Source of the DNA: a virus
Direction: 5' to 3' (one strand)
IMG/VR virus record: IMGVR_UViG_3300005536_000288
Location: 1 to 40,136 of that record
Length of the DNA: 40,136 bases
Shown here: piece by piece, positions 13,419-33,916 of the stretch
How the letters are laid out: each line of letters begins with the position of its first letter
Numbering within the stretch: position 1 is the stretch's first letter
Made by a program: the position numbers and the translations under genes
Notes under the pieces: generated by a model
What the model was told of the DNA's origin: nothing
Database searches by the model: none
What the model saw: the letters and a program-made list of their open reading frames with translations, nothing else

Positions 13419-14624
13419 GTGTCCTCAGTAGTTCGAACATCCATCATCGGGGCTGAACCTGTCGCCCTCGCTGACATGAAGAACTTTTTGAAAGTGTCTT
13501 CAGGCGTGACCACCGACGACATTTTGATCCAGAACCTCATCAAGGCCGCGCGGCAGCAGGCCGAGATCCTCACCGATAGCGTCTTAGTTCGCTCGACTTT
13601 TGTTCAGTACATGGATCACTTTCCATATTGGAGGATCCGCGAGCGCGGCTATTACGTGGGCCAGGTAGGGTACGCCTACGAACATCACAACGCTCACCGC
13701 GGCGAGATCCGCTTGCGGCGAACTCCGCTGATCTCGGTTCAAAGCCTGGTCTACATTGGCGCGGATGGCGAACCTCACACCCTCAACCCAGGACAAGACT
13801 TTGTCGTCGACGGTGCCCAGCAACCCGGACGGATCCGGCCGATTCCTTATACTGTTTGGCCCCTCACGCTGAGTGTTCCGAATGCGATTGCGATTTCATT
13901 CACTGCGGGGTACGCACCTGATAGCGAAGGCGTGGCGGCCGGCCAGGCGGCAATTACGGAGCCTGAGACTGTAAGCCATGACCTTAATCCCAGCTGGCAG
14001 CCGTCAACCGCGGTTCCGCAGTGGACCTTCCTGGTCGATCCCAACGGCAATATCGAAGTTCAGATCAATGCCGGCAGCCCGCTTACGGGCGCCGGTCCGA
14101 ATCCTCCAGCGTGGCCAGCGATCGGCGCGGAAGTCGTCGACGGCGCATGTCTCTTCCACAACTATGGACCACTGCGCGGTTTCTGGACTCCCGATACGAA
14201 ATACTCCGGAAACTGGATCATCTTGGATCAGAATTCGAACTTGCAGCTGCTCGTGATCCCCTCGTTGATTAGCCAGACGTCGCCGCCATCCGGCATCGTC
14301 GGATCTGTCACGCCGCCTTTTGCAAGCGAGGTGGCAGCGATCACTGTGGACAACGGCGAAAACGCCTGGCGATGCCTGGGCGCTTATAGGGGCCTTGGTA
14401 ACCAGGGCGCCTCGATACCCACGGCACCCGAGCAGCAGGCGGCATACACGATCGACTGGACGTTGCCCGATACGGTCTCGATGGCGATCATGCAGCTCGT
14501 CTCTCATTGGTATTTCAATCGCGAGCCGGTCGTGCCGGGATCTGTAAGCGAAATCCCCCTCCATATATCGAGTCTTCTCGCGACGGTTGCAGTGCCAGAT
14601 TACGCGCCCACTCCCGACAATTGA
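13419..14624 (+). CDS. gp6-like head-tail connector with inserted domain
   Basis: 401 residues starting at the GTG directly after the preceding stop. The N-terminal about 150 residues match the HK97 gp6-like connector: PVALADMKNFLKVSSGVTTD, then IQNLIKAARQQAEILTDSVL, then a beta region with RTPLISVQSLVY and IAISFTAGYA. The expected C-terminal helix appears only at about residue 350 (LPDTVSMAIMQLVSHWYFNR). Between them lies about 190 extra residues with two W(Q/T)Px(T)-headed beta modules (WQPSTAVPQWTFLVDPNGNI and FWTPDTKYSGNWIILDQNSN). These resemble repeats seen in tail fibres. It forms a ring below the portal; the insert could be displayed outward. Confidence 0.82.
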   Translation: MSSVVRTSIIGAEPVALADMKNFLKVSSGVTTDDILIQNLIKAARQQAEILTDSVLVRSTFVQYMDHFPYWRIRERGYYVGQVGYAYEHHNAHRGEIRLRRTPLISVQSLVYIGADGEPHTLNPGQDFVVDGAQQPGRIRPIPYTVWPLTLSVPNAIAISFTAGYAPDSEGVAAGQAAITEPETVSHDLNPSWQPSTAVPQWTFLVDPNGNIEVQINAGSPLTGAGPNPPAWPAIGAEVVDGACLFHNYGPLRGFWTPDTKYSGNWIILDQNSNLQLLVIPSLISQTSPPSGIVGSVTPPFASEVAAITVDNGENAWRCLGAYRGLGNQGASIPTAPEQQAAYTIDWTLPDTVSMAIMQLVSHWYFNREPVVPGSVSEIPLHISSLLATVAVPDYAPTPDN

Positions 14625-14687
14625 TTTTCGTTCCAATGAAACCACGAACAGATGAATTTGCGCCTTCGAGCGCACAAGGAGACCATC

Positions 14688-15053
14688 ATGCCAGCCAGAA
14701 CCGTACTTGCTATCCAGCAGCTGAGAGCGCTGAATCAGGCCGCTCCCACTCCGGGACAACTTGATATCACCTTCACTGCGGCCGACGTCGCCAACGGCAA
14801 TGCCTTCCCCTTCAGCGGCAGAGAAGTTCTGTTGGTCCAGAATGCCGACGGCGCGGCTGCGCATCACTTCACAGTTTCGAGCGTTGCGGACGGCCTCGGC
14901 CGGACTGGCGACATCACGGCATACACCGTGGCCTTAAGCGGCTTCTCCGCGATCGACGCGAACACGCTGCAGGGATGGCTCGAGGGAGACGGCAATATCT
15001 ATCTCTCCGGCGACAACGCGAGCATTAAGTTCGCCGTTCTGCGCCACAGCTAA
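14688..15053 (+). CDS. Structural protein, function unknown
   Basis: 121 residues. The ATG at 14688 was chosen for AAGGAG 8 bases upstream. The protein is a beta-rich small domain (RTVLAIQQLRALNQAAPTPG, LDITFTAADVANGNAFPFSG, REVLLVQNADG, then a C-terminal NIYLSGDNASIKFAVLRHS). The sequence style matches phage virion proteins found beside head-tail adaptors, possibly decoration-type. No catalytic motif. Confidence 0.6.
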   Translation: MPARTVLAIQQLRALNQAAPTPGQLDITFTAADVANGNAFPFSGREVLLVQNADGAAAHHFTVSSVADGLGRTGDITAYTVALSGFSAIDANTLQGWLEGDGNIYLSGDNASIKFAVLRHS

Positions 15054-15062
15054 GGCTCCTAG

Positions 15063-15431
15063 ATGCCGTTGCCCAGAATGAGTTTCCAGCCGCCCTCGGC
15101 GAGCGCCTATACGCCCGTGGGATCGATGTGTCATGCGATCACCTTTCTCGCGCCTGGCGATCGCGGAAACGACGGCGGCACTCAGCCTCCAAGCCCGGTC
15201 GCGAGTTCCTGGGCCGCGATCCGCGCGCTCGCCGGCCAGGAGCTCTATAAAGCGCAGCAAATCGTCGAGGAGGTCACTCACCTGGTCACGGTGCCTTACC
15301 AGCTGGGCTTGACCGAATCCATGTTGGTGAAACTCGACAACCGCATCTTCCAGATCAAGGCGATCCAGGATCCGGACGAGCGCAAGGTCGAGCTCCGGTT
15401 GCTCTGCGTAGAGCGCAATCAGAACGGATAA
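15063..15431 (+). CDS. Head-tail adaptor (head closure) protein
   Basis: 122 residues. The pattern fits the phage head-tail joining/adaptor family (SPP1 gp16-like). It has ITFLAPGDRGNDGGTQPPSP, then SSWAAIRALAGQELYKAQQI, VTHLVTVPYQLGLTESML, and the closing KLDNRIFQIKAIQDPDERK and VELRLLCVERN. The conserved 'W..I..L.G.E...A' and 'R.F.I..I.DP.ER...L.L.C' elements are all present. It closes the connector after packaging and gives the tail a docking surface. Order after gp6-like connector is canonical. Confidence 0.88.
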   Translation: MPLPRMSFQPPSASAYTPVGSMCHAITFLAPGDRGNDGGTQPPSPVASSWAAIRALAGQELYKAQQIVEEVTHLVTVPYQLGLTESMLVKLDNRIFQIKAIQDPDERKVELRLLCVERNQNG

Positions 15432-15436
15432 CTTTC

Positions 15437-15823
15437 ATGCCCATCACTCACAGATTCCAATCCGCGGTACCAGCCGGCGGCGTCGTAGGCGACGTCACCA
15501 CCGTCAATTGGAATGATAGTCACGTCTTCATCCTGTTATCGACGGCTTACAACGCGAACGCCAATGTGGCGGCGACCGCCGAGGTCCTCGAGGGAACGGG
15601 CGGATCCGGCGGGATCACGCTCACCCTGCCTTCGGCCGCGGCGAATACTGGCAAATTTTTTTACGCGATGAAAGTCGACAGCGGAGCCGGCGCCGTCACT
15701 CTCGTCGATGCTGCGGGCGCTCTATTCAATGGGGACAATTCTTATGTGCTCGAAAATCAGTGGCAGGCCGTGAAGCTGCAATCGAACGGAACCCGCTGGA
15801 ACGTGATCGGTCAGGCCAACTAA
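15437..15823 (+). CDS. Tail-fibre-like/virion surface protein
   Basis: 128 residues, Gly/Ala/Val rich and beta-structured. The core GGSGGITLTLPSAAANTGKF, then VDSGAGAVTLVDAAGALFNG and YVLENQWQAVKLQSNGTRWN, is a motif seen in phage fibre and surface domains ('TLTLPSA...G..F...V..GA.TVTL...G..I.G......L......V.L...G..W'). This suggests a small receptor-binding or fibre-associated domain. It directly precedes the block of exported proteins and could belong to it functionally. Confidence 0.65.
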   Translation: MPITHRFQSAVPAGGVVGDVTTVNWNDSHVFILLSTAYNANANVAATAEVLEGTGGSGGITLTLPSAAANTGKFFYAMKVDSGAGAVTLVDAAGALFNGDNSYVLENQWQAVKLQSNGTRWNVIGQAN

Positions 15824-15846
15824 CAAACAACTCCGGACAAATTCCA

Positions 15847-17697
15847 ATGAAGACAAAAGCGATCGCGATCGCAATTCTGCTGGTGTCTCTACTCTCGACT
15901 CTGCCGGCATTCGGTCAGGGCGGGACTGCGACTGTCGTACGTCTGGGACCCGCGCTTCCTTCGGGAGCAAAGCAGTGGCAGATGTTCATCCTTACACAGA
16001 CTTCAGGCGGCCTGCCTCCTGGCCCCTATCTTTGCGTCAACAATCCGACGTGCACATCGAACTCGCATTGGTCGGGAATGGGAACGACGTCGGCGCCGGG
16101 ATCTCCGGGGCAGCTGATCCTCAACATCGCCGGGCTGCTCGGCGCGAAGGCCGATATCTATGTCGACGCTAATGATTTCCTGAATGCTCTCGGCCTCAAC
16201 ATCAATGGCACCGGAAACTTTAGCTTGTCGGGAGCCTACGCCCTAGTGACCGATTGCACGCCGGTGTCCAGCCAATCCGAGATTTGCTTCGGGCTCGGCG
16301 GCGCGATCGAGGGATCTGAAAACGGTGACGCGATGGCGCAGTTCGGCCGCAAGGGGCTGATCACCGGCGCCTTCCTAAAGCTCGACGGAAACAATTGCTT
16401 GGCGCTCGGCACAAACGGTGACATCGGCCCATGCCGCTTGAATACCGGTGTCACCATGGACCTGGATCCCGCCAACCCGTTGCTGCCCACGAAGCACATT
16501 TTCATGAAGGATTTCACTTCCACCAATGTGTGGGAAGGCCTCTCCTGTGGACTCGACACCGTCGATAACGTTTATGTCTGCGGTTCCGATCACGGATCCA
16601 GCGGCGGATCCAACTTCCCTTTCTACATGACTGCGGGCGGAGGTACGAATCCTTTTTGGGGCGTGGTGGGCCAGGGCAACTTTGTTTGCCACACGAAGAA
16701 CCCGAACTGCGATCTCGGCTCGATCACGCTTGCGCAGCAGGTCCGCATCGAGTGGATGAATCAGTTTCTGGCGCTAAACGGCGCCGGGATCGGCCCGATG
16801 TATCTGGTCGACACCACCACGGGCGTGCAGATCGGCTTGGCCGCGAAGAGAACCTCTGACAATCCCTCGAAAGTCGTGTTACCGGCGACAACTGATACTA
16901 ATGGCGTGTTAGGCGCCGTCATTGGCCTAACGAACGGCAGCGTCACCGGAGGCACTATCGTCGCCGGCGGATCCGCCTACGTAAGTCCGACGTGCCAGAT
17001 CTCGCCCCCGTCAGGCAACACGGGCGTGACCGGTCTTTGCACTGTCCATCAGACCGCTGGCGTGATCGATTCGATCACCATTAGTAATCCCACGGGGAAC
17101 AATGGCTATCAGTTCCTGCCCACGATCACTATCAGCGATTCAGCCGGAAGTGGCGCGCAAATCATTCCTGTGGTCACCGCGAAGACGGGCAGCGCGATCA
17201 TCGCGGCAAACGGATCCCTGGTTGGCGGGATATTCGATGGCGCCGTCACCATCCGCGACCGCGTGCGTCTCTCAACCACTACCGCCGGGCAATTCAGCGA
17301 TTCAGGTATCCCCTGCGGCGCTGCGATCCCGCAGGGCTCCCAGACTTTCGGGTGTCTGAATCAGACCGGCAGCGGAAGCGGCATGACCTGGCAATTTGGG
17401 GTGCACATGCACGATCAGGAAGCCGCCATGCTGATCGACGTTGCGCCTTCGGCGACGAGCTGCCCGACGGGAGCGACGATCGGGAATACCTGCAAAGACA
17501 CGATCTCGCTCAGTCCGGCGATGTCGAGCGCCAACTATATCGCCAATTGCCAGATCACTGGAGTGACCTCGGGCGTGCCGCTGATCCAGGGCGAACTCAC
17601 GGCCGACTTCAGCGCCGGAAGTTTCAAGATCCAAGTTAGTGCCGGCAGCGCAGCTGCCGCGCAGGCTTCCACCTATCGCTGCCGAATCTCTCAATGA
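15847..17697 (+). CDS. Sec-signal-bearing large beta-rich protein (block member 1)
   Basis: 616 residues. ATG at 15847 is chosen because it yields a textbook signal peptide (MKTKAIAIAILLVSLLSTLP, then AFGQ as probable cleavage site); upstream codons in this frame run inside the previous gene. The mature part begins with a domain containing PPGPYLCVNNPTCTSNSHW. Several Cys pairs follow, then residues about 360-448 with a repeat style (SVTGGTIVAGGSAY, IDSITISNP) also found in the next protein. A C-terminal domain ends in ASTYRCRISQ. No catalytic motif is evident. The ATGA overlap couples it to the 1695-residue gene. A fibre, adhesin or exported binding protein is likely. Confidence 0.72.
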   Translation: MKTKAIAIAILLVSLLSTLPAFGQGGTATVVRLGPALPSGAKQWQMFILTQTSGGLPPGPYLCVNNPTCTSNSHWSGMGTTSAPGSPGQLILNIAGLLGAKADIYVDANDFLNALGLNINGTGNFSLSGAYALVTDCTPVSSQSEICFGLGGAIEGSENGDAMAQFGRKGLITGAFLKLDGNNCLALGTNGDIGPCRLNTGVTMDLDPANPLLPTKHIFMKDFTSTNVWEGLSCGLDTVDNVYVCGSDHGSSGGSNFPFYMTAGGGTNPFWGVVGQGNFVCHTKNPNCDLGSITLAQQVRIEWMNQFLALNGAGIGPMYLVDTTTGVQIGLAAKRTSDNPSKVVLPATTDTNGVLGAVIGLTNGSVTGGTIVAGGSAYVSPTCQISPPSGNTGVTGLCTVHQTAGVIDSITISNPTGNNGYQFLPTITISDSAGSGAQIIPVVTAKTGSAIIAANGSLVGGIFDGAVTIRDRVRLSTTTAGQFSDSGIPCGAAIPQGSQTFGCLNQTGSGSGMTWQFGVHMHDQEAAMLIDVAPSATSCPTGATIGNTCKDTISLSPAMSSANYIANCQITGVTSGVPLIQGELTADFSAGSFKIQVSAGSAAAAQASTYRCRISQ

Positions 17698-20600
17698 AAT
17701 TAGGTTTTCGTTCTACCCCGGTCGTTCTGCTACTTACAGCGGCGGCCGTGGGACAAATCGCGACCTGGAAAGGCACCTTCACCGCGAAGGGAACTTTCCG
17801 CTCGCCGGCGCCGTTGGTATTGGGCGGCACTCCGATCGCAGCCTCTTCCTGGGGCAATCACAATCACCTGCCATTAATTACCCAACCCACGATTCCCTTT
17901 GGCACCATGCGTCTCTGGGGCTCGGCAAACGGAGTCTGGAACACGATCGAGACCCAGGGCGTGGGATCGGTCACCGTGACCAATGGCGGGAGCTGCTCGT
18001 CGACGCCCATGGTTTCATTCTCCGGAGGCGGCGGCAGCGGCGCCACCGCGACCGCGAGTCTTACCAGCGGCCATGTGAGCGCGATAACCGTCACCGCTCA
18101 GGGCAAAAGTTTCTGGTCAGTTCCCAGTGTCGTCCTCACTGGAGGTAGCTGCACGGGAGTCGTGGCGACGGCCAACCTGGTTCCAGTTTTCGATTTCTCT
18201 GGAATTCAGTACTGGATCGATTACGCGAACACCCACAACGTGGACCTCTGGTTCACCTTCGGCCAGATGCCGCGCTTCGGCTCGACCATGCCGAACGATA
18301 TGCCCGGCAACTACCCGCTGCCATTCCCGGTCGCGAACAATGGGATCTCCTGGAACAATGGCGTAGTTACAGTCTCAACGCTCGTCCGCGTGAATGCCAC
18401 CGCGGCCGCGCCTAACTTCGATAGCGTCACGGTTGCCGGTGCGACCGGCTGCCCCTTCACCGTCAACAGCACCTTCACTCTCACCGGCGCGAACAATGGA
18501 ACCCCGAATGCGCCCTGGACCTATAGCTTCAATCTGCCCGCGGCGACAGGTAGCGGGACGTGCGGCGGATCCGCGATCACCTTCACCGATACGAACAAGA
18601 CGCTGAGCGATTGCAACGGCACCGGCAGCCCGCCCAACGGCCAGGGCGGAGGGTGCTACTCGCCGGCCGATATCGCGATCGATGGAACGGGGACGGATGC
18701 ATTTCTCATCAACCTCGAGACCCAGTTCCTCGCCTGGCTTTCGACGAATGATCCCAATCACCGCATGAAGTATTGGGAAATGTGGAACGAGCCGCAAGGC
18801 AAAGGATTTTTCAATGGCTCGATCGCGCAGATGGCGAGGATGCAGCTCGATACTTTCAACACCGTCGCGTCTTCCGGGCGGCCGGATATCGTCGTCACCG
18901 CTCCAGCACCCTCAGGAGGCCTCACTTCTCCTGGGAATTACCTCGGCCTTTTTGGCGCAGATCCATCGCAGCCTTTTCAGTTTGTGAAACTGATCCCATT
19001 CCACTCTTACAACTTCTCAAACAACAACGTGGCGCCGAATCCGCTCGACGTGCTCACCACCACAGCGAACGTCAAGGCCGCGATCGCCGGGCTGCCTTTT
19101 GCAGCAGGCAAACCGCTGGCCGTCTCCGAAGGTGGGTGGGGCTCGGGATTATGGGCCACGCAAGGTGCTCAGGGCCCGAACAACGGCACCGCGGCCGCTC
19201 TCAATCACGCGAACTGGATGGCGATCTGGCGCATGGGGCATATCTGCGCCGGCATGAGCAAGTATTACGACTTTGGGTGGGATCAGAACATGTTGTCCGG
19301 CGAGATCACTGGAACGACGCCTCCAATCTCGATCTTGCCGTCCGGACTTGCGGACGGATTCGCCCACGACTGGCTGGTCGGCGGAACTCTAACTCAGACG
19401 TGCTCCAAGGACACGTCGAACAACTGGACGGCGCAGATCACGCGGCCGGGCGGCTATACCGGCATGATGCTCTGGAACCAGAACCTCTCGGCCGTCGGGA
19501 GCTACACGATAACCGCTGGCGTGTGGATCGACTATCGAGATATTTCCGGAAACATTTTCACGATCCTGCCGAACCAGACCAGCGTTCCCGTTCAGGGCGA
19601 TCCTATCTTCCTCGAGTCGAAGAGCCGCGGCTCGATCATGGCGGCCCCATTCATCGCGGGAACTTTGCCCAATGGCAATGCAGGCACGAGCTATTGGGGG
19701 CCGCTCGCGGTCCTCGGCGGCGTTCCGCCTTACAGCTGGAACGATCGAATGCTTCCATCCGCGCTCACCGCGGCTGGGCTTTCGATCGATCCGGTAAGTG
19801 GGCTCGTTAGCGGCACTCCCACCGTCATTGGAACCTACAAGCCGGTGATCGGAGTGATGGATTCGACCGGGCAGACCTTCGCGACAAACTTCACTATCGT
19901 CATCAATGCGCCTGGGACCTCGTGCGGCGCTCCAACTTTCCCATGCTCGAGTCGAAGCACCGCCCCGGTCCCGAATCCGACGCCGCCTTTCTCGAGCACC
20001 ACCGCGGTGAATCATATCGCGTTCGATACGAGCTTGAATCCGTATGGGCTGAACCCATACGTGCAGGCGACCGATTCGACAACGCACAGCAATTGGTCGT
20101 GCACCGTAAGCCCGAGCGGCGGCGCGAACGACAATCTCTGGGCCACGGACAAGAGCAAGTTCTTCGGCACCTGCATAAACGGGAACTCGACGCAGAGTTT
20201 TATCTTCTTCTTCGATCCCACGAACTTCCAGATCACCGGGAAAGTCGCGGCGCCCGCGAATACCGGCGGCGGGGTAGCATTTTCGCGCACAAACCCCAAT
20301 GTCCTCTACAGCTCCAATCAGGGGACATCGGATATTTACCAGACCACCTTCACCGGAACCAGCTTCGTTCAGACCCTGTTTTATTCTCCCCGGACGAGTT
20401 GCGCCCCACTGGTTGGGACCACGGGCACGGCAGGGGTTTTATCGCTGGACGTCAATGATCTGAACTTCGAGCTCGACCAAGTCTCGGCGGGACAAAATGC
20501 GCCCGGATGGATCATGCACTATGACGTCGCCGCGAATAAGTGCGAGGTCGTCGACACCAGCACCGGAATCGTGACTCTCGAAGACGGTTCGAGCGGAGCG

Positions 20601-22781
20601 GCGGTGGGAACGGGTCTTTGCTGGCCGATCGGCGTTCACGCGGGATACATGTTCCGGAATGGCTTGTGGGGCAGCTTCTCGACCGCAGCTATCACGGGCG
20701 GCGTTTGCACCAATGCCCCTCACCACTGGCAGTTCGGAACCCGCAACATCAAACGCTGCGATGATTTTGGAAGTGGAACCTGCGGCCCGAACCATGACAC
20801 CAACGGATATGCGGTGCGGGTAATCTCGCCGACGATCACCGGCCAAGGAGGCAAGCCGCAGCTTTATTACTACAATCAAACCGACACCTTACCCCCGCCG
20901 GTCGGGCAGTTCTATGGCACCATCCCAAACCAGAATGATGAGCACTTTACCTCGTTCGGCAATGGCCCGAACATCGACACCAACCCGATAGTTGGGGAGA
21001 CCGACAAGTTACTGTGGGACGGGTCGCCATTCACCAATCCGGGCGAGGACGAAGTGTGGGCGATGGCGCGCACACCGCTGCAGCTCGCTCCCCTCATTCG
21101 CTTGGGCCACAATTTCACTTCAGGCGCCGCTCAGTGCGCGAATTGCGACTTTAGGGATCAGCAGGCGATCGGCGCGACCGCGCAAGATGGCAGCGCAATG
21201 GTGATCACCAGTGACATGGGCTTGACGATGGGTACCGACGCCCATGGCGATCCAGCCCAGCATTTATTCGTCATCGGCCTTGATAGGTTCTTCGGCTCGA
21301 GTTCCTCGGCCGCGCTCATCGCGAACAATACTCCTGGATGCACCGCGAATGGCTCGCCCGATTCCGGCTGCAACGGGGTATTTATCGGGACCGTTACCAC
21401 CGCCGGGAATACCAACGCGCAAACCAAGACGGTGAATATCGCGCCCGGCCAGGTCTCCTCGAAGCAGATTCCGAGCCTTCTCTATAGCGGATCGACGACC
21501 GCAGTCGATTGCTACTATCAGCCCTGGTTTTGGAATTCCGCCACTCCGCCTTTCACTGGCGGGTCTCCCTACAACGGGCACGTGAATATCTTTCAGGACG
21601 AATCGGCGACCGCGACGATCGCGAAGCAGGCAGCCGCCATGGTGGCCCGCGGCTGCACTGACGTGGTCTTCGATTGGTACGGCACGGATACCTTTCAGAC
21701 TTACACCCTGGCTGTGGTCAACGCCTGGGCTGCTTACCTGGTCGCCAATCCTTCCGTAGCGCTGAAGATGGCGATCATGATCGACAAGGGCGCGCTCAGC
21801 CCCTTCTGCCCCACCGGATCAACCGATCAGACCAGTTGCCTGATTACCCAGCTCGAAACCTTCTTCGACTATATCGACGCAAATTATGGACCGGGATCTG
21901 GGAAGAATATCTACGCCCTGGACGGCAGCGGCAATCCGCTGGTGTGGTACTTCATCATCAAGGCCGCCTGGAGCGGCACGAATTTCTCGACCAACTCATC
22001 CGGCGTCTATCCGCAGGTTCAGACCTACGCGCACGCCCATTACTCGAAGCCTTATCAGATCCTTGATGAGAACGCCGGCGCCTTCACCGAGCTGGGGATC
22101 GATGGCGGCTATGCCTGGCTTCAGCCACCGGTCTATTCAAACACCAACAGCTCGCAGCTCTGCTGGAACGATATCGTCGGTGAGACTTCTGGGCATCCCT
22201 GCAGCGCAACTACCGGCGTCGGCGGGGGAGTGGCTTATCTCGGAAACTTCTACTCGACCGCACGCGCCCATTCCTCAAAGCATGCGGTGGGCGCGATCTA
22301 TAAAGGCTTCGATTGGTCGATTGCGGGCTGGAAGGACGTCGAAAAGATCATCGCCCAGCAGTGCGGCAATGTCCTGCTCTTTACCTGCAACGCGATCGGC
22401 TCAGCCGGCTACTCCAGTTCTTCGCAGCTCGAGCGCGTGGGAGTCATGTGGAACGATTACGAAGAAGGCCACGCTACCGAGACGGGCATCGATAATTGCG
22501 TCCGGCCGAGCGCCTCGATCTCGAGTGGCGCGCTGTTCAGCTGGCTGGTGAACCCGACTGATACGACTTATTACTCGGTCAACACGATTGATCACTGGAC
22601 GATTTGGTACGGCCCAAACGCGAACAGCATGGCGCCGGCGCTCGATAACATTTCCCCCAGCGTGAGTTTTGAAGACCTGACCACGCTCGTGCCGCACGGC
22701 AGCTGGCAGGTCGAAGTGTGCATGACCGGCAAGGCAGAGATGGAGAACCGCTGCAGCAATCCCGTCACCCTCGTGCAATAG
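17694..22781 (+). CDS. Giant exported multidomain protein with two glycoside-hydrolase-like barrels
   Basis: 1695 residues. The hydrophobic N-terminus (FRSTPVVLLLTAAAVGQ) looks like a Sec signal. Domain order: NGG-type beta repeat (about 90-165); clan GH-A-like barrel (about 166-640) with WNEP at 364-367 (acid/base E366) and candidate nucleophile E479 (AVSEGGWG), interrupted at about 215-300 by a beta insert; He_PIG-like Ig domain (about 655-740); a beta-propeller-like region (about 765-1200); a second barrel (about 1250-1610) resembling GH71/GH99-type enzymes (VDCYYQPWF, NIFQDESA, DVVFDWYG); and a C-terminal FN3-like strand region. It probably cleaves polysaccharides. Barrel folds are inferred from motifs. 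Finding it inside a morphogenesis operon is unusual. Confidence 0.75.
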   Translation: MKLGFRSTPVVLLLTAAAVGQIATWKGTFTAKGTFRSPAPLVLGGTPIAASSWGNHNHLPLITQPTIPFGTMRLWGSANGVWNTIETQGVGSVTVTNGGSCSSTPMVSFSGGGGSGATATASLTSGHVSAITVTAQGKSFWSVPSVVLTGGSCTGVVATANLVPVFDFSGIQYWIDYANTHNVDLWFTFGQMPRFGSTMPNDMPGNYPLPFPVANNGISWNNGVVTVSTLVRVNATAAAPNFDSVTVAGATGCPFTVNSTFTLTGANNGTPNAPWTYSFNLPAATGSGTCGGSAITFTDTNKTLSDCNGTGSPPNGQGGGCYSPADIAIDGTGTDAFLINLETQFLAWLSTNDPNHRMKYWEMWNEPQGKGFFNGSIAQMARMQLDTFNTVASSGRPDIVVTAPAPSGGLTSPGNYLGLFGADPSQPFQFVKLIPFHSYNFSNNNVAPNPLDVLTTTANVKAAIAGLPFAAGKPLAVSEGGWGSGLWATQGAQGPNNGTAAALNHANWMAIWRMGHICAGMSKYYDFGWDQNMLSGEITGTTPPISILPSGLADGFAHDWLVGGTLTQTCSKDTSNNWTAQITRPGGYTGMMLWNQNLSAVGSYTITAGVWIDYRDISGNIFTILPNQTSVPVQGDPIFLESKSRGSIMAAPFIAGTLPNGNAGTSYWGPLAVLGGVPPYSWNDRMLPSALTAAGLSIDPVSGLVSGTPTVIGTYKPVIGVMDSTGQTFATNFTIVINAPGTSCGAPTFPCSSRSTAPVPNPTPPFSSTTAVNHIAFDTSLNPYGLNPYVQATDSTTHSNWSCTVSPSGGANDNLWATDKSKFFGTCINGNSTQSFIFFFDPTNFQITGKVAAPANTGGGVAFSRTNPNVLYSSNQGTSDIYQTTFTGTSFVQTLFYSPRTSCAPLVGTTGTAGVLSLDVNDLNFELDQVSAGQNAPGWIMHYDVAANKCEVVDTSTGIVTLEDGSSGAAVGTGLCWPIGVHAGYMFRNGLWGSFSTAAITGGVCTNAPHHWQFGTRNIKRCDDFGSGTCGPNHDTNGYAVRVISPTITGQGGKPQLYYYNQTDTLPPPVGQFYGTIPNQNDEHFTSFGNGPNIDTNPIVGETDKLLWDGSPFTNPGEDEVWAMARTPLQLAPLIRLGHNFTSGAAQCANCDFRDQQAIGATAQDGSAMVITSDMGLTMGTDAHGDPAQHLFVIGLDRFFGSSSSAALIANNTPGCTANGSPDSGCNGVFIGTVTTAGNTNAQTKTVNIAPGQVSSKQIPSLLYSGSTTAVDCYYQPWFWNSATPPFTGGSPYNGHVNIFQDESATATIAKQAAAMVARGCTDVVFDWYGTDTFQTYTLAVVNAWAAYLVANPSVALKMAIMIDKGALSPFCPTGSTDQTSCLITQLETFFDYIDANYGPGSGKNIYALDGSGNPLVWYFIIKAAWSGTNFSTNSSGVYPQVQTYAHAHYSKPYQILDENAGAFTELGIDGGYAWLQPPVYSNTNSSQLCWNDIVGETSGHPCSATTGVGGGVAYLGNFYSTARAHSSKHAVGAIYKGFDWSIAGWKDVEKIIAQQCGNVLLFTCNAIGSAGYSSSSQLERVGVMWNDYEEGHATETGIDNCVRPSASISSGALFSWLVNPTDTTYYSVNTIDHWTIWYGPNANSMAPALDNISPSVSFEDLTTLVPHGSWQVEVCMTGKAEMENRCSNPVTLVQ

Positions 22782-22794
22782 GAGACACCCAACA

Positions 22795-24684
22795 ATGAAA
22801 CGATTTTTGCTTGCGCCTCTCATCCTGGCGCTGGGCGCGATGTGCGCCTTCGCTCAGGGAACCTATACAGAGAATCTCACGGTCACCAACTCCCCGACGC
22901 CGATCGTAATTCATAACGGATCGACTTTTGTTCTGATCCGCGAAAATGCCGCGACTCCAACGGCCGTGTTCAGCGTCACGCCGGCCGCAGCAAACTCCGT
23001 TGCTGTCAATCTCGCGGCCGGCCAGGCATATCAGTTCTCGAACGGCTCTTTTCCCTATGCCTCGGGAACAACGCTGGGAACGATTCAGGCGACAACCGCT
23101 GGGCCATTCACTTTCGTGATCTTTGAGATGAGCGCGTTCCAAGCCTTTCCATCGGCCTCAATCATGGCAGCCGCGGGCGGGAGTTCAACCGCCAATCAAG
23201 GCACCGCTGCAGCGGCGTCGGGCGCATGGCCTACGAAAGTCACGGATGGAACTAACATTGCGGCCGTAAAACCTGCTTCAACTGCGGCCCAGGCGGCCGA
23301 CTCCGCAATCGTGGTTGCAGAGTCCCCGAATACCCCGCTGCCCCCGGGATCAAATCTGATCGGTAAAACCGGGTTCGATAATACGACGCCAGGAACGACC
23401 AATGGCGTGAGCATGGCGCAACCTTCGAGAACGACGGGCACAATTACGACGTCTGCCTCGACCGTCTCCGTTTCGTCAGCTGGATACTCGATCGCGACCG
23501 TCACTACGAACGGGACATATGCGGGCATTACGGTGAATTTTGAATTTTCGGACGATGGCGGCACGACCTGGTACAGCGACACTTGCGCTAGAACTGATAC
23601 CAATGTGTTAGAAAGCAGCGAAGCTCTGCCAAGCAATCAGACGCGAGCCTGGGATTGCTCGATTTACGCTGCGACAACCTTCCGCGTGCGATCTTCCGCT
23701 TATACGAGCGGCACCGCCAATATAGGCATCACGCTCAGTGCAGCTCCTGTTGAATCTGCTCCTACGGTACAAATGGCGTCCGGATTTACGCAGCCGGTCA
23801 GCGCTTCATCCTTGCCTTTGCCTACTGGAGCTTCCACCTCCGCAAAACAACCGGCTCTCGGAACTGCGGGATCGCCTGCGGCCGATGTGATCACTGTGCA
23901 GGGCGCAGCCTCCATGACTGCTGTAAAAGTGGATGGCAGCGCTGTTACGCAGCCCGTGAGTGCTTCATCCTTGCCTTTGCCTACTGGAGCTGCCACTTCT
24001 GCGAAACAACCCGCCCTCGGAACGGCCGGCACACCTTCCGCCGATGTGATCAGTGTGCAGGGTGCCACTTCCATGACCCCGGTAAAAGTCGACGGGAGTG
24101 GGGTCACTCAGCCAGTCAGCGGAACTGTCACGGCGAATGCCGGCACGGGAACGATGGGCGTACAAGGAGCCACAGCTTCAGGCTCGGCCGAATCGAATGA
24201 CAATCCGGTAATGCAGGGCGGTTCCGACGGAACGAACATTCAAAAGAGTCTCACGGCATCCGCCTCGAATATGGGCGGGACGCTTACCACTACGGAAAAA
24301 GGCGCACGCCTGATGGAGAAAGGCCCGCGGTGGTCTGTCTCCTCGGCTCCTGCGGCCGGATCGCAAGCCACGGCCTCCAAATCTGCGGGAGGCGCAGGAG
24401 TGCGGCACATTCTGGATTGCATCAGCTTTTCGGCGGGTTCAACGAGCGCTCCCGCGCTGACTCAGCTCTCGATCAACGTGAGGGATGGAGCATCGGGAGG
24501 AGGAAGCGTAATTTGGCAGCATACCGTGATCATTCCAGCAGCGACCGGCCAGAACGTCTCGCCTTTCGGCTTGTGCGGCCTAGGACTCGTCGGATCCAGC
24601 AATACGGCTATGACAATTGAGTTCTCCGCCTCCCTCGCCAACCTTTTTGAGTCGGTCGATATTTCCGGAACGGATGTCAACTAA
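22795..24684 (+). CDS. Sec-signal-bearing repeat protein (block member 3)
   Basis: 629 residues. The N-terminus MKRFLLAPLILALGAMCAFA is a clear signal peptide. Residues about 22-115 form a beta domain (YTENLTVTNSPTPIVIHNGS). Residues about 210-320 form a second one with FEFSDDGGTTWYSDTC. Residues 333-438 hold two exact-length 53-residue repeats (QPVSASSLPLPTGA...) plus a partial third. A C-terminal beta domain (VRHILDCISFSAG to the end) resembles phage fibre or base-plate surface domains. This repeat type is common in virion fibres. It closes the three-gene exported block and is followed by tail completion genes. Confidence 0.72.
   Translation: MKRFLLAPLILALGAMCAFAQGTYTENLTVTNSPTPIVIHNGSTFVLIRENAATPTAVFSVTPAAANSVAVNLAAGQAYQFSNGSFPYASGTTLGTIQATTAGPFTFVIFEMSAFQAFPSASIMAAAGGSSTANQGTAAAASGAWPTKVTDGTNIAAVKPASTAAQAADSAIVVAESPNTPLPPGSNLIGKTGFDNTTPGTTNGVSMAQPSRTTGTITTSASTVSVSSAGYSIATVTTNGTYAGITVNFEFSDDGGTTWYSDTCARTDTNVLESSEALPSNQTRAWDCSIYAATTFRVRSSAYTSGTANIGITLSAAPVESAPTVQMASGFTQPVSASSLPLPTGASTSAKQPALGTAGSPAADVITVQGAASMTAVKVDGSAVTQPVSASSLPLPTGAATSAKQPALGTAGTPSADVISVQGATSMTPVKVDGSGVTQPVSGTVTANAGTGTMGVQGATASGSAESNDNPVMQGGSDGTNIQKSLTASASNMGGTLTTTEKGARLMEKGPRWSVSSAPAAGSQATASKSAGGAGVRHILDCISFSAGSTSAPALTQLSINVRDGASGGGSVIWQHTVIIPAATGQNVSPFGLCGLGLVGSSNTAMTIEFSASLANLFESVDISGTDVN
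23791..24123 (+). repeat. Tandem 159-bp coding repeat (2 full copies plus partial third)
   Basis: Copies start at 23791, 23950 and 24109, exactly 159 bases (53 codons) apart. Each begins CAGCC and encodes QPVSASSLPLPTGA followed by STSAKQPALGTAG or ATSAKQPALGTAG. The third copy retains only QPVSG before diverging. DNA identity is high but not complete, showing an older duplication maintained in frame. Confidence 0.9.
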
Positions 24685-24702
24685 ATCGTTGCTCCGAACA
24701 AA

Positions 24703-25113
24703 ATGATTCTTTCCGGCCTTTACAACCTGCTGCTCGCCGATCCGGGCGTAAGTGCGATCATCGCCGCGAAAGGGGTCTACTTCACCCTTGCTGCCGAGCA
24801 AGCCGCGCGGCCGTTTGTCGTGATCCACATAGTGAGCGCTCCGCCGGCCGAGACCAGTCTCGATGGCGTAAGCGAGCTCATCAGCGGCCGCTTCCAGTTC
24901 GATTGCTATGCCGACGATCAGCTCAGCGCGCGCAAGCTCTCTCGCGCCGTGCGCGATCTGCTGAAGAACTACTCCGGAGGCCTTTCGGATGGTACCGCCA
25001 TTCAATTTACGGCCGTAAATCTGGATATGGATGATCCCTACGAAGTCGGCGGCCAGGGATTCGTGTTCCGCTCGCTCCTTGATCTCTCGGCGTTCTATAC
25101 GGAGGGCGCGTGA
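24703..25113 (+). CDS. Tail terminator/completion protein (DUF3168-like)
   Basis: 136 residues. The family pattern is clear: SGLYNLLLADPGVSAIIAAK, PFVVIHIVSAPPAETSLDGV, RFQFDCYADDQLSARKLSRA, and a C-terminal FVFRSLLDLSAFYTEGA. Such proteins cap the tail tube and join it to the head. The ATG at 24703 has only a weak purine run upstream. The stop overlaps the GTG of the first tail tube gene (GTGA). Confidence 0.88.
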   Translation: MILSGLYNLLLADPGVSAIIAAKGVYFTLAAEQAARPFVVIHIVSAPPAETSLDGVSELISGRFQFDCYADDQLSARKLSRAVRDLLKNYSGGLSDGTAIQFTAVNLDMDDPYEVGGQGFVFRSLLDLSAFYTEGA

Positions 25114-25604
25114 GCTCGACGGTTTACATGGGGCGCGGCTCGAAGCTGCAGATCAGCGCGGATGGGATCAACTTTCTGACCGTCGCACAACTCCAGAAGT
25201 TTGCCTTCAGCGGGCTCAAGACGGTCCTCGTCGACACCACCAATCTGAGATCACCGGGCAATGCTAAAGAGAATCTGCCGGTCCAGGTTGATTCCGGCGA
25301 AGTGACTTTCAGCGGCGTGCTCAATCCCCACGATGCGGTGGCTCTCGACATTCCCTCGCTGCAGTTTGGTCTCGCTCAGATTTCGGTGAAGATCATTGTT
25401 CCCGACGGAACGACGTACAGCTTTATGGGCAGCATCAGTGAATACGTCCCGGTGGCGGTCGAGTACTCGAAGGCTCTCACCTTCTCGGGAAAAATAAATA
25501 TCTCGGGCGCGCTCACCATCATCCCCGGATCGACCGGAATGACCGCTCGCGGCTTCCAGGTGCCCGGATTCCAGTCGCCGGGATTCCAGTCGGCTATCGG
25601 CTAA
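25110..25604 (+). CDS. Major tail tube protein, copy A
   Basis: 164 residues from the GTG at 25110, with GGAGGG just upstream. It starts TVYMGRGSKLQISADGINFL and continues with FSGVLNPHDA and a C-terminal KALTFSGKINISGALTI. This is the pattern of lambda gpV/HK97-like tail tube proteins. The C-terminal extension repeats QVPGFQSPGFQS. It is clearly paralogous to the next gene: the shared segments GRGSKLQ(I/T)SADG and YSKALTFSGKI/YAKAITFSGKI align. It polymerises in hexameric rings to form the tail tube. Confidence 0.85.
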   Translation: MSSTVYMGRGSKLQISADGINFLTVAQLQKFAFSGLKTVLVDTTNLRSPGNAKENLPVQVDSGEVTFSGVLNPHDAVALDIPSLQFGLAQISVKIIVPDGTTYSFMGSISEYVPVAVEYSKALTFSGKINISGALTIIPGSTGMTARGFQVPGFQSPGFQSAIG

Positions 25605-25637
25605 AACTTTCAACACTTCAACTCAGGAGAAGCAACT

Positions 25638-26057
25638 ATGACAACCGTTTCCTATCAAGGCCGCGGCTCGAAGCTGCAGACCAGCGCCGACGGCGTCACC
25701 TACACCTCGGTCGCGCAGCTCCGCAACATCAAGTTCGGCGGGCTGAAATCGACCGTCGACAAAGTAACCAATCTGGACTCTCCGAACGCGTTCGAGGAGA
25801 TCCTGCCCACCATCATCGATCCTGGCGATTGCAGCTACGACGGCGTGCTCGATCCCGCGAACCCCACGGTGCAGAGTCTGCTCACGCTGTTGCAGAACCA
25901 GACGCTGACCTTTTTTAAGGTCACTTTCCCTGGCCTCGCCAACACGATCACCTGGAAAGGCTATGTCGTTGATCACGTGCCGGCGGAGGTCGGTTACGCC
26001 AAGGCGATCACGTTCTCCGGGAAGATCATGATCACCGGCCCCGTCACTATAACTTAA
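25638..26057 (+). CDS. Major tail tube protein, copy B
   Basis: 139 residues with AGGAGA 8 bases before the ATG. It shares with copy A the start YQGRGSKLQTSADGVTYTSV, the middle YDGVLDPANPTVQSLLTLL and the end YAKAITFSGKIMITGPVTI. Unlike copy A it lacks the PGFQ repeat tail and has LLTLLQNQTLTFFKVTFPG, closer to the common lambda gpV-like form. This copy may be the main tube subunit. Copy A may be a variant ring, a tail-tip adaptor or a decoration, but the sequence alone cannot show which. Confidence 0.85.
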   Translation: MTTVSYQGRGSKLQTSADGVTYTSVAQLRNIKFGGLKSTVDKVTNLDSPNAFEEILPTIIDPGDCSYDGVLDPANPTVQSLLTLLQNQTLTFFKVTFPGLANTITWKGYVVDHVPAEVGYAKAITFSGKIMITGPVTIT

Positions 26058-26139
26058 GTTTCAGGCTGGCTTATTTTGTTTCTTCCCGAGGGCGGGATCT
26101 CCATGATCCTGCTCTTCGCGTCCATGAAAGGAGTCGTTT

Positions 26140-26565
26140 ATGGATCCGCTTCTACAGAAAGAATTGGGCGGCCTGCCGGTGAAAGCGATCATCGGCGGCC
26201 AGGAATACCAGCTCGCTTTCCCGATCAAGGCCGTCATCCTCTACAAACAGAAGATCGGCGACAACCTGTTCCAGGTAGATACTTGGAAGAAGGTAAATCC
26301 GCACGAGGATCCAGAACGCTTTCTCGCGTGCCTCTGGGCTGCGCTGCAGACCCATCACGCAGGGCTCGCAATCGAGAAGCTCGAGCAACTCGTCGACTTC
26401 GGCAATGTCGTCGCCCTCATGAAATCTCTAACCGAGGCGTTGACGTCCTACATGCCAAAGCCGCCATCCGAGGAAAAGGACCCAAACGCATCAGCGCCGG
26501 ACCAGGCGCCGGCGGATGCTCCCGAACCGGAGGCTCCGGGGTTTCGCAAACGTCCGAAGTATTAG
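26140..26565 (+). CDS. Tail assembly chaperone, gpG-like (short form)
   Basis: 141 residues. AAAGGAG with a 6-base spacer precedes the ATG at 26140. The protein has a small folded N-terminal half (LGGLPVKAIIGGQEYQLAFP, then LWAALQTHHAGLAIEKLEQL) and a Pro/Glu-rich tail. Position between tail tube and tape measure, plus an overlapping -1 frame, match the lambda G/T arrangement. It binds the tape measure protein during tail assembly and is not in the final virion. A canonical slippery heptamer at 26481-26487 allows a longer GT form. Confidence 0.85.
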   Translation: MDPLLQKELGGLPVKAIIGGQEYQLAFPIKAVILYKQKIGDNLFQVDTWKKVNPHEDPERFLACLWAALQTHHAGLAIEKLEQLVDFGNVVALMKSLTEALTSYMPKPPSEEKDPNASAPDQAPADAPEPEAPGFRKRPKY

Positions 26566-26936
26566 ACGTCCGCGAGCTGTGGGCGATCGCGCGCGGCGAT
26601 CTCGGCCTGACCGATGATGAATTTTTGTCCATGGCGCCCGCGGCTCTCGACGTCCTGATCGAACAGCAAGGGCGCAGCCGGATTTTTCCTGCGGCGATGA
26701 TTTGTGCAGCGATTTTCAACACCCACAATGACTGGACGAAGAATCCCGATGGCTGGCGGCCGCAGGACTTCATGCCGGGCGCCAAGCTCAGAAGCGATGA
26801 GGACGACATGAGGGAATTCGTTCTCGCCCTCGAGCGCGGAGACGATGTCGCGCCAACGCCAGAGGATCTCGAGCACTTCAAGCGGAACCTGCAGCAGCAA
26901 TTCAGAATTCAGGCGCCAACAAGCAATGTGGGATAA
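26140..26936 (+). CDS. Tail assembly chaperone, GT-like frameshift product
   Basis: Predicted -1 frameshift product: zero frame 26140-26487, then the -1 frame from 26487 to the TAA at 26934-26936, about 265 residues. After the slip the sequence is RISAGPGAGGCSRTGGSGVS, then a folded T-like domain (LDVRELWAIARGDLGLTDDE, MAPAALDVLIEQQ, DWTKNPDGWRPQDFMPG). The -1 frame has no convincing start of its own. In lambda-like phages a small fixed fraction of ribosomes make GT, and the ratio matters for tail assembly. Evidence is strong by arrangement and heptamer. Confidence 0.8.
26481..26487 (+). promoter_or_regulatory. Programmed -1 ribosomal frameshift site
   Basis: The heptamer C CCA AAC is in the correct phase (GAC CCA AAC in zero frame), so P- and A-site tRNAs can re-pair on CCC and AAA. 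It fits the X XXY YYZ rule exactly. The zero frame stops 76 bases downstream (TAG at 26563), while the -1 frame stays open to 26936. GC-rich sequence follows and could form a stimulatory structure. Confidence 0.82.
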
Positions 26937-31476: not shown

Positions 31477-31910
31477 TGGCACTCGTTCGTTTTCCAGATT
31501 GGGAGCGCCGCCTCGGGGAGTGCCTCGCCGCCGCAGCCGAGAAACCTTTCCAGTGGGGCAGCTTCGACTGCGCTCTCAGCGCGTGTGACTGCATTCAAGC
31601 GATTACCGGCATCGATCCGGCCGCGGAGATACGCGGAACGTATTCGACCGCTGAGCAGGTGCGAAAACTATTTGTCGAACATGGCGGCACTCTCGAATCA
31701 TTGGCCACATTCTTCGCATCGCGCCTGGAAATGCCGGAGGTCGGCCCTTTCTATGCTCATCGCGGGGACGTAGTGCTCGTCAACAATGAGACCCCTGATC
31801 GGGCCCTCGCTATCGTTGATTTTAGCGGACGGTTTGCCCGTTGTGCCTCTGAGAACGGCCTGGCGCGCCTCGCAATGAAGCGATGGATCCGCGCCTGGCG
31901 CGTCGGCTGA
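31476..31910 (+). CDS. NlpC/P60-like tail protein (DUF6950-like)
   Basis: 144 residues. FQWGSFDCALSACDCIQAIT carries a Cys in the position of the NlpC/P60 nucleophile (FDC). AHRGDVVLVNN follows about 75 residues later in the place of the usual His-containing strand, and a His precedes the RGD. Such tail-tip proteins are thought to cut peptide cross-links of peptidoglycan during DNA entry. The family position between minor tail protein and gpJ-like hub supports the call (compare lambda gpK). Activity is likely but not proven from these residues. Confidence 0.75.
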   Translation: MALVRFPDWERRLGECLAAAAEKPFQWGSFDCALSACDCIQAITGIDPAAEIRGTYSTAEQVRKLFVEHGGTLESLATFFASRLEMPEVGPFYAHRGDVVLVNNETPDRALAIVDFSGRFARCASENGLARLAMKRWIRAWRVG

Positions 31911-31927
31911 TTCCATTTACAAACCCA

Positions 31928-33916
31928 ATGTCTAAAACTGCTCTGGCCATCGGCGAGATCATCGGCGGCGTCGCGCTCCTCATTTTCTCCGGCCCGATTG
32001 GGGCCGCGTTCTTTCTGAGCGCACAATCGCTTCTAGCGCTACAAACGATCGCGATCACCACAATCCTAACCGGGACGATAGGCTTAATCCCTCAGCCCAG
32101 CACTCCGGTTTCGGTTGTCAACGGCTCGCTGAGCGTCAACAATCCGGTCGCTTTCCGCCGCGTGTGTTACGGCACGACTGCGATTAATGCGGGTGTCCCC
32201 ACTTTCAGTGACTACCCGATAGCTTCTGGAAACTTTCAAAACTCCGGCTACGACTACCAATGGCTGCATTTCGTTTTTACTCTCACGGGGCATCAGATCT
32301 CGCAGTTCCTGGCTGTGGTCATTGACGGCATTTTCTTCCAGATCGGGACCGACCTCGTGCTGCAGGGAAACGGATATTACGAGCTAACCTCGGCCGCAGC
32401 CGCCAGCGGCTATTTCGACGGCTCGAGTGGCTACAACACTGGCAGCCTGGTCGCATTCGAGTTCGACACTGGAGATCCATTGAACGCGGCGCAGCCTTTC
32501 CCCGGCCTCGCCGCCGCTTCGAGCACGAAGTGGACCAGTGCCTGCAAGCAACGCGGTTGTGCGAAGGTACACGTGGCATTTCGTTATTGCGCCGACCTCG
32601 CCAGCAACCCATCGAACTTATCTCCGGCACCATTCAATCCATACAACGGGAGTCGGATTCCTCGCTTGAAATTCCACTTCGTGGGCAAGCCGCTTCTCGA
32701 TACTCGCTCGCCGGTCGGGAGCGTCGGCGCGCAGACTGCAGTCAGCAGCATCAATCTTGCGAATGGCATGGTGACCTGCGGAGTCGCCGATCCCACAAAC
32801 TTCGCGGCCGGCGCCATGGTCGAAGCGGGTATTACATATGCTCTGGGATTCAATCTCGTGCGTCTACAGGGCAGCTTCCCAGTATTTCGCGTCTCCGGCG
32901 GCTCGGTAATCCTGAAAGTGCCCAACGCGAGCGGCGGAAGCGGAAGCAGCGTCGTTGGAACGCTCACCCTGCTTTCCAGCGGATATGGCGCCGCGGCCAA
33001 TCTCTCGAACCCCGCCCTCGCGGTCTATGACTATTTAACCGACACCGATTACGGCATGGCAGCCGATCCCATCAGCGTCGACATCTCGACCGTGAACGCG
33101 GCCGCGAATCTTTGCGACGAAAATGTCATTAGCGAATGGACGAACATCGGAATCGTAGAAGAGAAGCTGTATGCCTGCGACGGCATGTTCGATCATTCGC
33201 AGACGCGCGGCTCGGTCCTTAAGTCGCTGTGCGACTCAATGGCTGGATTCGCGGTGCCTCCCGGAGATCTCTGGCGGATCTATGCGGGATCCTCGTACGC
33301 GCCCAACTTCACTCTCACCGATGCGGATCTCCGGGATTCGATCAAAGGAGACTTCCGCCTTTCCCGGCGCGATATCTGCAACGGGATTAAGGGCACCTTC
33401 TTTCCCTCGAATGTGCCCATCGCCGCGAACAGCCCGCTCGCGCACTTGCCGCCTGCAGCCTGGGAGCAGACGGATTTCCCGCCCTATCAGGGGAACGGGC
33501 TGAACAAACATCCCGATTACATCACTGAGGACGGCGGCCAGATTATCTGGAAAGACATCCAGCTGCCCTTCACCGTCTCGCTTTACATGGCTCAACGCCT
33601 GGCGAAGATCACGCTGCAGAAGCTTCGGCGCCAGGTAACGCTGAATCTGGCCTGCAAAATGACGGCCTACCAGGTGCAGGCCGGGGACATCATCATATTC
33701 ATCCATCAGCGATGGGCCGCGCTGAATCCTGCTCCGCCCACCTGGTTCTTCGTGCAGCAGGTCACGCTCGTCCTCGACACCAGTAAGGAAAAGCCAGCGC
33801 TGGGCGTGGATCTGGTACTGCGAGAGATCGACAACTTCGTCTATTCGTTCCTTGCGCCCACCGGGCCGAGCGATCAAGGCGAGTACTCGCCTTACGGAAC
33901 TACCGGCTTCGAATAA
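31928..33916 (+). CDS. Central tail hub / host-specificity protein (gpJ-like)
   Basis: 662 residues from the ATG at 31928; an in-frame ATG at 31883 would overlap the previous gene. The N-terminus is hydrophobic (LAIGEIIGGVALLIFSGPIG). The body shows gpJ/TipJ-type elements: KLYACDGMFDHSQTRGSVLK, SLCDSMAGFAV, GDFRLSRRDICNGIKGTF and MAQRLAKITLQKLRRQVTLN. A beta insert around 280-375 (GMVTCGVADPTNFAAGAMVE) interrupts the expected order. The protein is shorter than lambda gpJ and lacks a long C-terminal receptor-binding part. Receptor binding may therefore be done by other proteins, for example the exported block. Confidence 0.82.
   Translation: MSKTALAIGEIIGGVALLIFSGPIGAAFFLSAQSLLALQTIAITTILTGTIGLIPQPSTPVSVVNGSLSVNNPVAFRRVCYGTTAINAGVPTFSDYPIASGNFQNSGYDYQWLHFVFTLTGHQISQFLAVVIDGIFFQIGTDLVLQGNGYYELTSAAAASGYFDGSSGYNTGSLVAFEFDTGDPLNAAQPFPGLAAASSTKWTSACKQRGCAKVHVAFRYCADLASNPSNLSPAPFNPYNGSRIPRLKFHFVGKPLLDTRSPVGSVGAQTAVSSINLANGMVTCGVADPTNFAAGAMVEAGITYALGFNLVRLQGSFPVFRVSGGSVILKVPNASGGSGSSVVGTLTLLSSGYGAAANLSNPALAVYDYLTDTDYGMAADPISVDISTVNAAANLCDENVISEWTNIGIVEEKLYACDGMFDHSQTRGSVLKSLCDSMAGFAVPPGDLWRIYAGSSYAPNFTLTDADLRDSIKGDFRLSRRDICNGIKGTFFPSNVPIAANSPLAHLPPAAWEQTDFPPYQGNGLNKHPDYITEDGGQIIWKDIQLPFTVSLYMAQRLAKITLQKLRRQVTLNLACKMTAYQVQAGDIIIFIHQRWAALNPAPPTWFFVQQVTLVLDTSKEKPALGVDLVLREIDNFVYSFLAPTGPSDQGEYSPYGTTGFE

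Follow-up and report, generated by a model that had tools for sequence, protein, structure and literature searches.

Why should a phage carry genes for seemingly secreted proteins in the middle of the operon that builds its head and tail? This question is raised by the virus record IMGVR_UViG_3300005536_000288, a stretch of 40,136 bases (the window) with an HK97-type siphovirus late operon, in which three large, co-directional genes (genes 1 to 3), each beginning with a predicted Sec-type signal peptide, lie between the genes for head closure and the tail terminator. Known tail fibres are synthesised in the cytoplasm, are attached to the particle there and carry no Sec signals. Our analysis makes it very probable that the proteins of the window and their signalled relatives are exported. 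We put at about even the chance that the block encodes disulfide-bonded siphovirus accessory proteins of fibre or depolymerase type, which would be exported by Sec and joined to the virions at lysis. The operon position, the signals, the disulfide signature, the conservation and the kinship to unsignalled domains of virion type are established at the level of sequence.

Predicted signals and signatures of export

Signals were scored by a written-out heuristic (n-h-c form, small residues at −3/−1; cut-off 4.4) and not by SignalP. The N-termini of genes 1 to 3 all open with basic residues, run through a hydrophobic core and have small residues ahead of the predicted cut, reading MKTKAIAIAILLVSLLSTLPA^FGQ in gene 1 (score 5.8), MKLGFRSTPVVLLLTAAAVG^QIA in gene 2 (4.8, the weakest of the three) and MKRFLLAPLILALGAMCAFA^QGT in gene 3 (5.6). 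The original prediction, whose coordinates and sizes for the three open reading frames (ORFs; 616, 1695 and 629 residues) were correct, had placed Sec-type signals on all of them, and these scores bear it out. As background, 3% of shuffled N-termini pass, and on annotated starts none of the structural-region genes did so in the cultured phages Tunturi_3 (0/26) and Tunturi_4 (0/19, 1.5-23 kb). At their own starts, the remaining head and tail genes of the window all stayed below the cut-off, two extra detections being internal starts, so that three consecutive signals are well beyond chance. Altogether 63 proteins, the three of the window plus 60 others, scored above the cut-off; a lipobox-like match was found in two of these, neither of them in the window.

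One explanation of these calls is that the signals are unused, being either chance hydrophobic N-termini or remnants from captured host genes for secreted proteins, and it draws on the heuristic nature of the scorer and on the resemblance of the multi-domain gene 2 to host secreted glycosidases. We consider this highly unlikely in view of cysteine parity and density, a bias towards glutamine at the predicted +1 position, an association between a cysteine pair and the signal, and the preservation of signals in diverged orthologs. The first three of these, together with the occurrence of further signalled genes at the loci of a small head-proximal gene, are signs that were not used in choosing the signalled set, and owing to their agreement export looks real. 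Among the 51 mature signalled proteins that contain cysteine, 45 have an even and 6 an odd count, versus 34 even and 53 odd among unsignalled structural proteins of the same phages and the Tunturi phages (Fisher p = 6.6e-9); after reduction to 39 homology clusters, about 28 even and 7 odd counts remain (p = 5e-4). The cysteine density of the mature signalled proteins is also 3-fold that of the unsignalled structural proteins (1.85% versus 0.58%). Glutamine stands at predicted +1 in 31/63 signalled proteins versus 3.7% in the rest, and a glutamine rule at this position is known for export in Bacteroidetes (PMC5837995).

The association with a cysteine pair comes from the family of the small head-proximal gene, which is signalled in 28 of the 80 copies fetched. 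The pair, in two fixed columns, occurs in 21/28 signalled versus 0/50 unsignalled copies. On a tree of related sequences, the signal label requires seven changes and the cysteine pair three, and in independent contrasts the two went in the same direction or showed no difference, never opposite, although with only four supported pairs this is not significant. Another large signalled gene lay just downstream at 11 of the 14 inspected loci with a signalled copy; the 15 loci with an unsignalled copy gave four detections, which by eye resemble tape-measure or capsid-adjacent N-termini and not signals. These loci suggest that a phage tends to have the predicted export trait throughout or not at all. 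Orthologs of the small gene are signalled in the related phages L004/L005, L007 and L068-L070, and the window's own unsignalled copy groups next to or within a clade whose members are mostly signalled, which may reflect a loss or the ancestral state. As for preservation, the gene 1 signal (MKTKAIAIAILLVSLLSTLPAFGQGG) and that of its L004 ortholog (MKLFKRLLQIFALLILPAIAYAQGGG) differ in letters and keep the same form, the mature parts being 51% identical.

Synteny of the block and its place in the operon

The nearest relative, L004/L005, has a major capsid protein (MCP) 77% identical to that of the window and the same gene order up to the contig end, with a signalled block that follows the head closure gene (Hc1) before the contig ends. 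It carries a signalled ortholog of gene 1 and an ortholog of gene 2 (57% identical in L004, where the contig end truncates it) whose signal, read by eye, comes after a longer n-region. In L068, L069 and L070 the order is adaptor, small gene, Hc1, two to three large signalled genes, terminator and tail tube (the terminator was not called in L070), and a block between Hc1 and the terminator is common to these three phages and the window. The conserved synteny that the original prediction had proposed as a check was found in these relatives. The signalled genes lie between adaptor and Hc1 in L007, with the block placed between the small gene and Hc1, and between MCP and adaptor in L002 and L047, which belong to another capsid lineage and have six each (in L041, whose MCP is 59% identical to that of L002, the adaptor immediately follows the MCP). 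In L010, three signalled genes follow J, which is where the tail fibre would stand, and the block is absent from L006 and L036. More distant phages have runs of two to six signalled genes located between their head genes and their tail genes, three signalled genes follow the portal gene in the complete podovirus genome MW202554 from a spring virome, and a fibre-type alignment scan yielded 29 loci, of which the majority have signalled homologs and many have signalled-gene runs. With gene 1 alone as query, viral contigs and phages gave no relative; a genome-collection scan found none with the window protease and, with the MCP, one distant relative in a Desulfovibrio metagenome-assembled genome. 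Apparent long hydrophobic starts were also noted in tail-tube paralog and post-capsid genes of these relatives (L068:12794, L070:11739, L068:3756 and L069:4332); they may stem from wrongly called start sites or represent additional signals on core virion proteins.

The Tunturi phages had initially been fetched as negative controls. Tunturi_1 and Tunturi_2, podoviruses of Tunturiibacter, Acidobacteriota (PMC11924767), carry five signalled genes directly after the head and tail genes, namely gp12, gp13, gp14, gp16 and gp17, with 20, 10, 20, 1 and 32/34 mature cysteines, respectively. Tunturi_2 gp13 is annotated as a tail fibre, and gp14 (Tunturi_2/_1) as pectin lyase or tail spike. The siphovirus Tunturi_4 has a signalled gp113, annotated as a tail protein and bearing a fibre-type repeat behind the signal, and a signalled gp114, which is 46% identical to Tunturi_2 gp17 over about 760 residues. 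Tunturi_3 lacks the trait, and the text of the Tunturi paper (PMC11924767) makes no mention of signal peptides or mass spectrometry. A signalled protein (46%) is common to the siphovirus L057:35018-37324 and the podovirus L058:18902-22744, unrelated Tunturi phages of two host species; we read this as the exchange of a gene for a putatively exported adhesion protein or enzyme.

Within the window (Table 1), gene 1 starts at ATG 15847, 23 nucleotides past the stop of the preceding gene, an ATGA overlap joins genes 1 and 2 at 17694-17697, just as the tight, coupled packing first noticed had it, and gaps of 13 and 18 nucleotides separate gene 2 from gene 3 and gene 3 from the tail terminator gene, respectively. 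The GC content of the block (58-61%) is the same as that of its surroundings. A scan of the + strand from 14400 to 25700 for sigma-70-like promoters, the one type covered, gave none, which, as weak evidence, is compatible with co-transcription. This layout bears on whether the three might be lysogenic-conversion (moron) genes, whose surface proteins would be shown by the lysogen. The window does contain an integrase gene and a separate moron-like lipoprotein gene (35761-36423), but the tight late-operon coupling with no promoter found, the conserved order relative to the head and tail genes, the sharing of the trait by plaque-forming isolates and the lack of a visible lipid anchor in the three proteins make such an origin quite unlikely. 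The gene at 35761-36423 itself (− strand), which adjoins the integrase, is lipoprotein-like (MKRESIAIFALALALSLSVSCGGGG) with Big2-like repeats, and is likely a moron or host flank. The original prediction had offered three readings of the signals: surface proteins exported by the lysogen or infected cell, proteins that reach the virion by an unconventional route, or anchoring segments. Membrane anchoring is unlikely (AxA-type cleavage sites, no evident transmembrane anchor and no lipobox in the three proteins), export gains from the signals and the disulfide signature, and expression in the lysogen only is disfavoured by the late operon and the plaque-forming isolates.

Table 1. Features of the window around and within the late operon
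Feature	Position	Strand	Remarks
TerS	5649
TerL	6168
Portal	8212
S49-type protease	9887
Major capsid (MCP)	11108
Adaptor	13419
Small head-proximal gene	14652..15053	+	unsignalled in the window
Head closure (Hc1), upstream flank	15063..15431	+	Pfam Phage_HCP 1.3e-14; phrog_25 6.9e-20
128-aa fibre-like gene	15437..15823	+	unsignalled; family searches without notable match
Gene 1	15847..17697	+	616 aa; predicted Sec signal peptide; 18 mature Cys
Gene 2	17694..22781	+	1695 aa; weaker predicted signal peptide; 33 mature Cys
Gene 3	22795..24684	+	629 aa; predicted signal peptide; 4 mature Cys
Tail terminator, downstream flank	24703..25113	+	Tail_completion_gp17, 1.1e-9
Two adjacent tail-tube (major tail protein) paralogs	25110-25604 and 25638-26057
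Neck	26967
Tape measure	27631
Dit	29787
J-like tip protein	31883..33916	+	short (677 aa); endolysin follows without an intervening fibre gene
Endolysin	33852
Integrase	36489

Adjacent tail-tube paralogs are also present in L068, L070 and L103 (L007's contig). Ahead of the tape measure gene, the ORFs 26076-26936 and 26140-26565 overlap in two frames, possibly a G/GT tail-chaperone frameshift.

Domains and destination of the proteins

Gene 1 contains a repeat common to phage virion proteins (phrog_460/701, E = 2.5e-4/3.5e-3), and this PHROG virion-protein repeat occurs in gene 2 as well. In gene 3, domain 205-336 is about 70% identical to the signalled L002:6346, with a cysteine pair in both, the first half is matched by one signalled L010 gene (E about 1e-9), and the C-terminal domain is 42% identical to the unsignalled L003:9785-10537. 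The signalled L002:5199 shares a domain with L002:9796 and Caulobacter phage genes, all unsignalled, and the signalled L087:10568 shares one with an unsignalled L002 gene located after the tail tip. Unsignalled homologs of signalled proteins, including the small gene, occur in other phages at the same, head-proximal or fibre loci. Homologs of this kind had been named at the outset as grounds for doubting the signals, and they do exist; the nearest orthologs nonetheless keep their signals while diverging. Taken with the disulfide signature, the two observations argue that signals have been added to virion-type proteins and are not mis-calls. As far as their sequences tell, the three window proteins are fibre-like, and we do not file them as ordinary fibres because export signals are present.

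The N-terminal half of gene 2 contains a GH39-like region, in which residues 356-442 weakly match a GH39 beta-xylosidase of the PDB (E = 0.036) and for which no Pfam match was found; WEMWNEPQG (with the NEP glutamate, the candidate acid/base) and VSEGxWG are invariant in the sole ortholog, the second glutamate, the candidate nucleophile, being assigned by eye. A GH71-like C-terminus of the same protein, suspected by eye (WNDYEEG), was without database support. L002:8306-9247, from the block of that phage, matches GH16 (E = 0.002) and has an ELDIAE motif. Such glycosidase-like domains, along with the pectin-lyase or tail-spike annotation of gp14, speak for exported proteins that never join the virion and act late as soluble periplasmic or extracellular enzymes and adhesins, which would digest or coat the envelope or matrix and so ease release and spread, or would mask receptors against the loss of progeny on debris. 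The signals and the disulfide signature fit this role equally well, and it has precedents in WceF of Pantoea, an exported enzyme of tailspike fold (PMC7949094), and in the Q-rule signal genes of Porphyromonas phages, taken there as envelope modifiers (PMC10367356). However, the proteins are composed of domains of the fibre and head-tail region that are unsignalled in other phages; they are located among head-tail genes or, in L010, at the fibre locus after J; runs of up to six consecutive genes are more than a simple enzyme role needs; and a signalled small head-proximal gene is implausible as an enzyme. We hold a role outside the virion to be a serious possibility, albeit one clearly on the lesser side of even, and the lysogen-surface and unused-signal explanations to be much less likely than it.

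That the virion is instead the end-point of the exported proteins, to which they would attach, is in our view a balanced proposition. A tentative picture of how they might get there, not quite reaching even confidence, is a two-compartment assembly: heads and tails would be built in the cytoplasm, fibres and depolymerases would be exported by Sec and folded in the periplasm, and the halves would be joined at or after lysis. With late transcription, the block would be made together with the capsid and tail proteins, and the host Sec pathway would export its products; signal peptidase would trim them and disulfides would form in the oxidising periplasm, as the indirect sequence signatures suggest; and upon membrane failure at lysis, the exported proteins would meet the cytoplasm-made virions and complete or decorate the particle. 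Gene 2 would supply the glycan-cutting part, and genes 1 and 3 would contribute fibres or linkers. That spikes can join late is a textbook matter for P22, whose tailspike can be added in vitro. A hint that the putatively exported proteins stand in for ordinary fibres comes from the J-like protein, which is 677-713 residues long, with no later fibre gene, in the window, L069 and L070, versus 1370-1400 residues plus two fibre-locus genes (with PHROG tail-fibre matches for one) in L006 and L036.

Several points weigh against attachment to the virion and the scheme built on it. The contrast in J length is one of three versus two phages and tracks kinship, and L002 carries ordinary fibre genes behind the tail-tip gene in addition to the block. 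Until lysis, a protein exported by Sec has no way of joining virions in the cytoplasm, which makes late joining a requirement. No virion-attachment domain was identified in the block proteins, and no proteomic support for signalled proteins in virions was found. AlphaFold, run on gene 1 and the N-terminal half of gene 2 with two-sequence alignments, gave a predicted local distance difference test (pLDDT) score of 32, and folds were not obtained. Finally, the cysteine count of gene 2 is odd (33).

Significance and comparison with known systems

Tailed-phage fibres are currently taken as cytoplasmic products, and the literature searched, mainly open-access, contained no description of tailed-phage proteins of tail-fibre type that bear Sec signals. 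What is new is that genes of fibre and depolymerase type have an export route that is not described for such genes; attachment to the virion, if shown, would be categorically new. The signalled proteins would form a recurring exported, disulfide-bonded class of fibre type in siphoviruses and podoviruses, including cultured Acidobacteriota phages, and would imply either an extra compartment in virion assembly or a late secreted arsenal against envelope glycans. In practice, signal peptides should be removed before such proteins are folded or expressed, and a reducing cytosol would be unsuitable for their production.

Phage-encoded exported envelope proteins such as Lom, Bor, Cor and Llp are known, and some are encoded in or near late operons, but they are small, usually single, and either outer-membrane proteins or lipoproteins; they are not fibre-like and do not occur in head-tail runs. 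The Nixviridae phages of Porphyromonas gingivalis resemble the block in having signal-peptide genes with a +1 glutamine and in drawing on a host secretion system; in the available part of that report, the five signal genes have no function assigned, and fibre domains, head-tail position and disulfides go unmentioned (PMC10367356). WceF, the exopolysaccharide hydrolase of Pantoea stewartii, likewise acts on a glycan, is of tailspike type and bears an export signal, but it is a bacterial gene of an exopolysaccharide cluster with a Tat signal, and belongs to neither a phage operon nor a gene run (PMC7949094). With the tail fibres, tailspikes and head fibres of tailed phages, the block shares domains (TxPVS-type, GDVTS/NPxFTGT repeats, glycan-lyase), neighbourhood and modular swapping, and its proteins differ from those fibres by their predicted cleavable signals and their disulfide signature.

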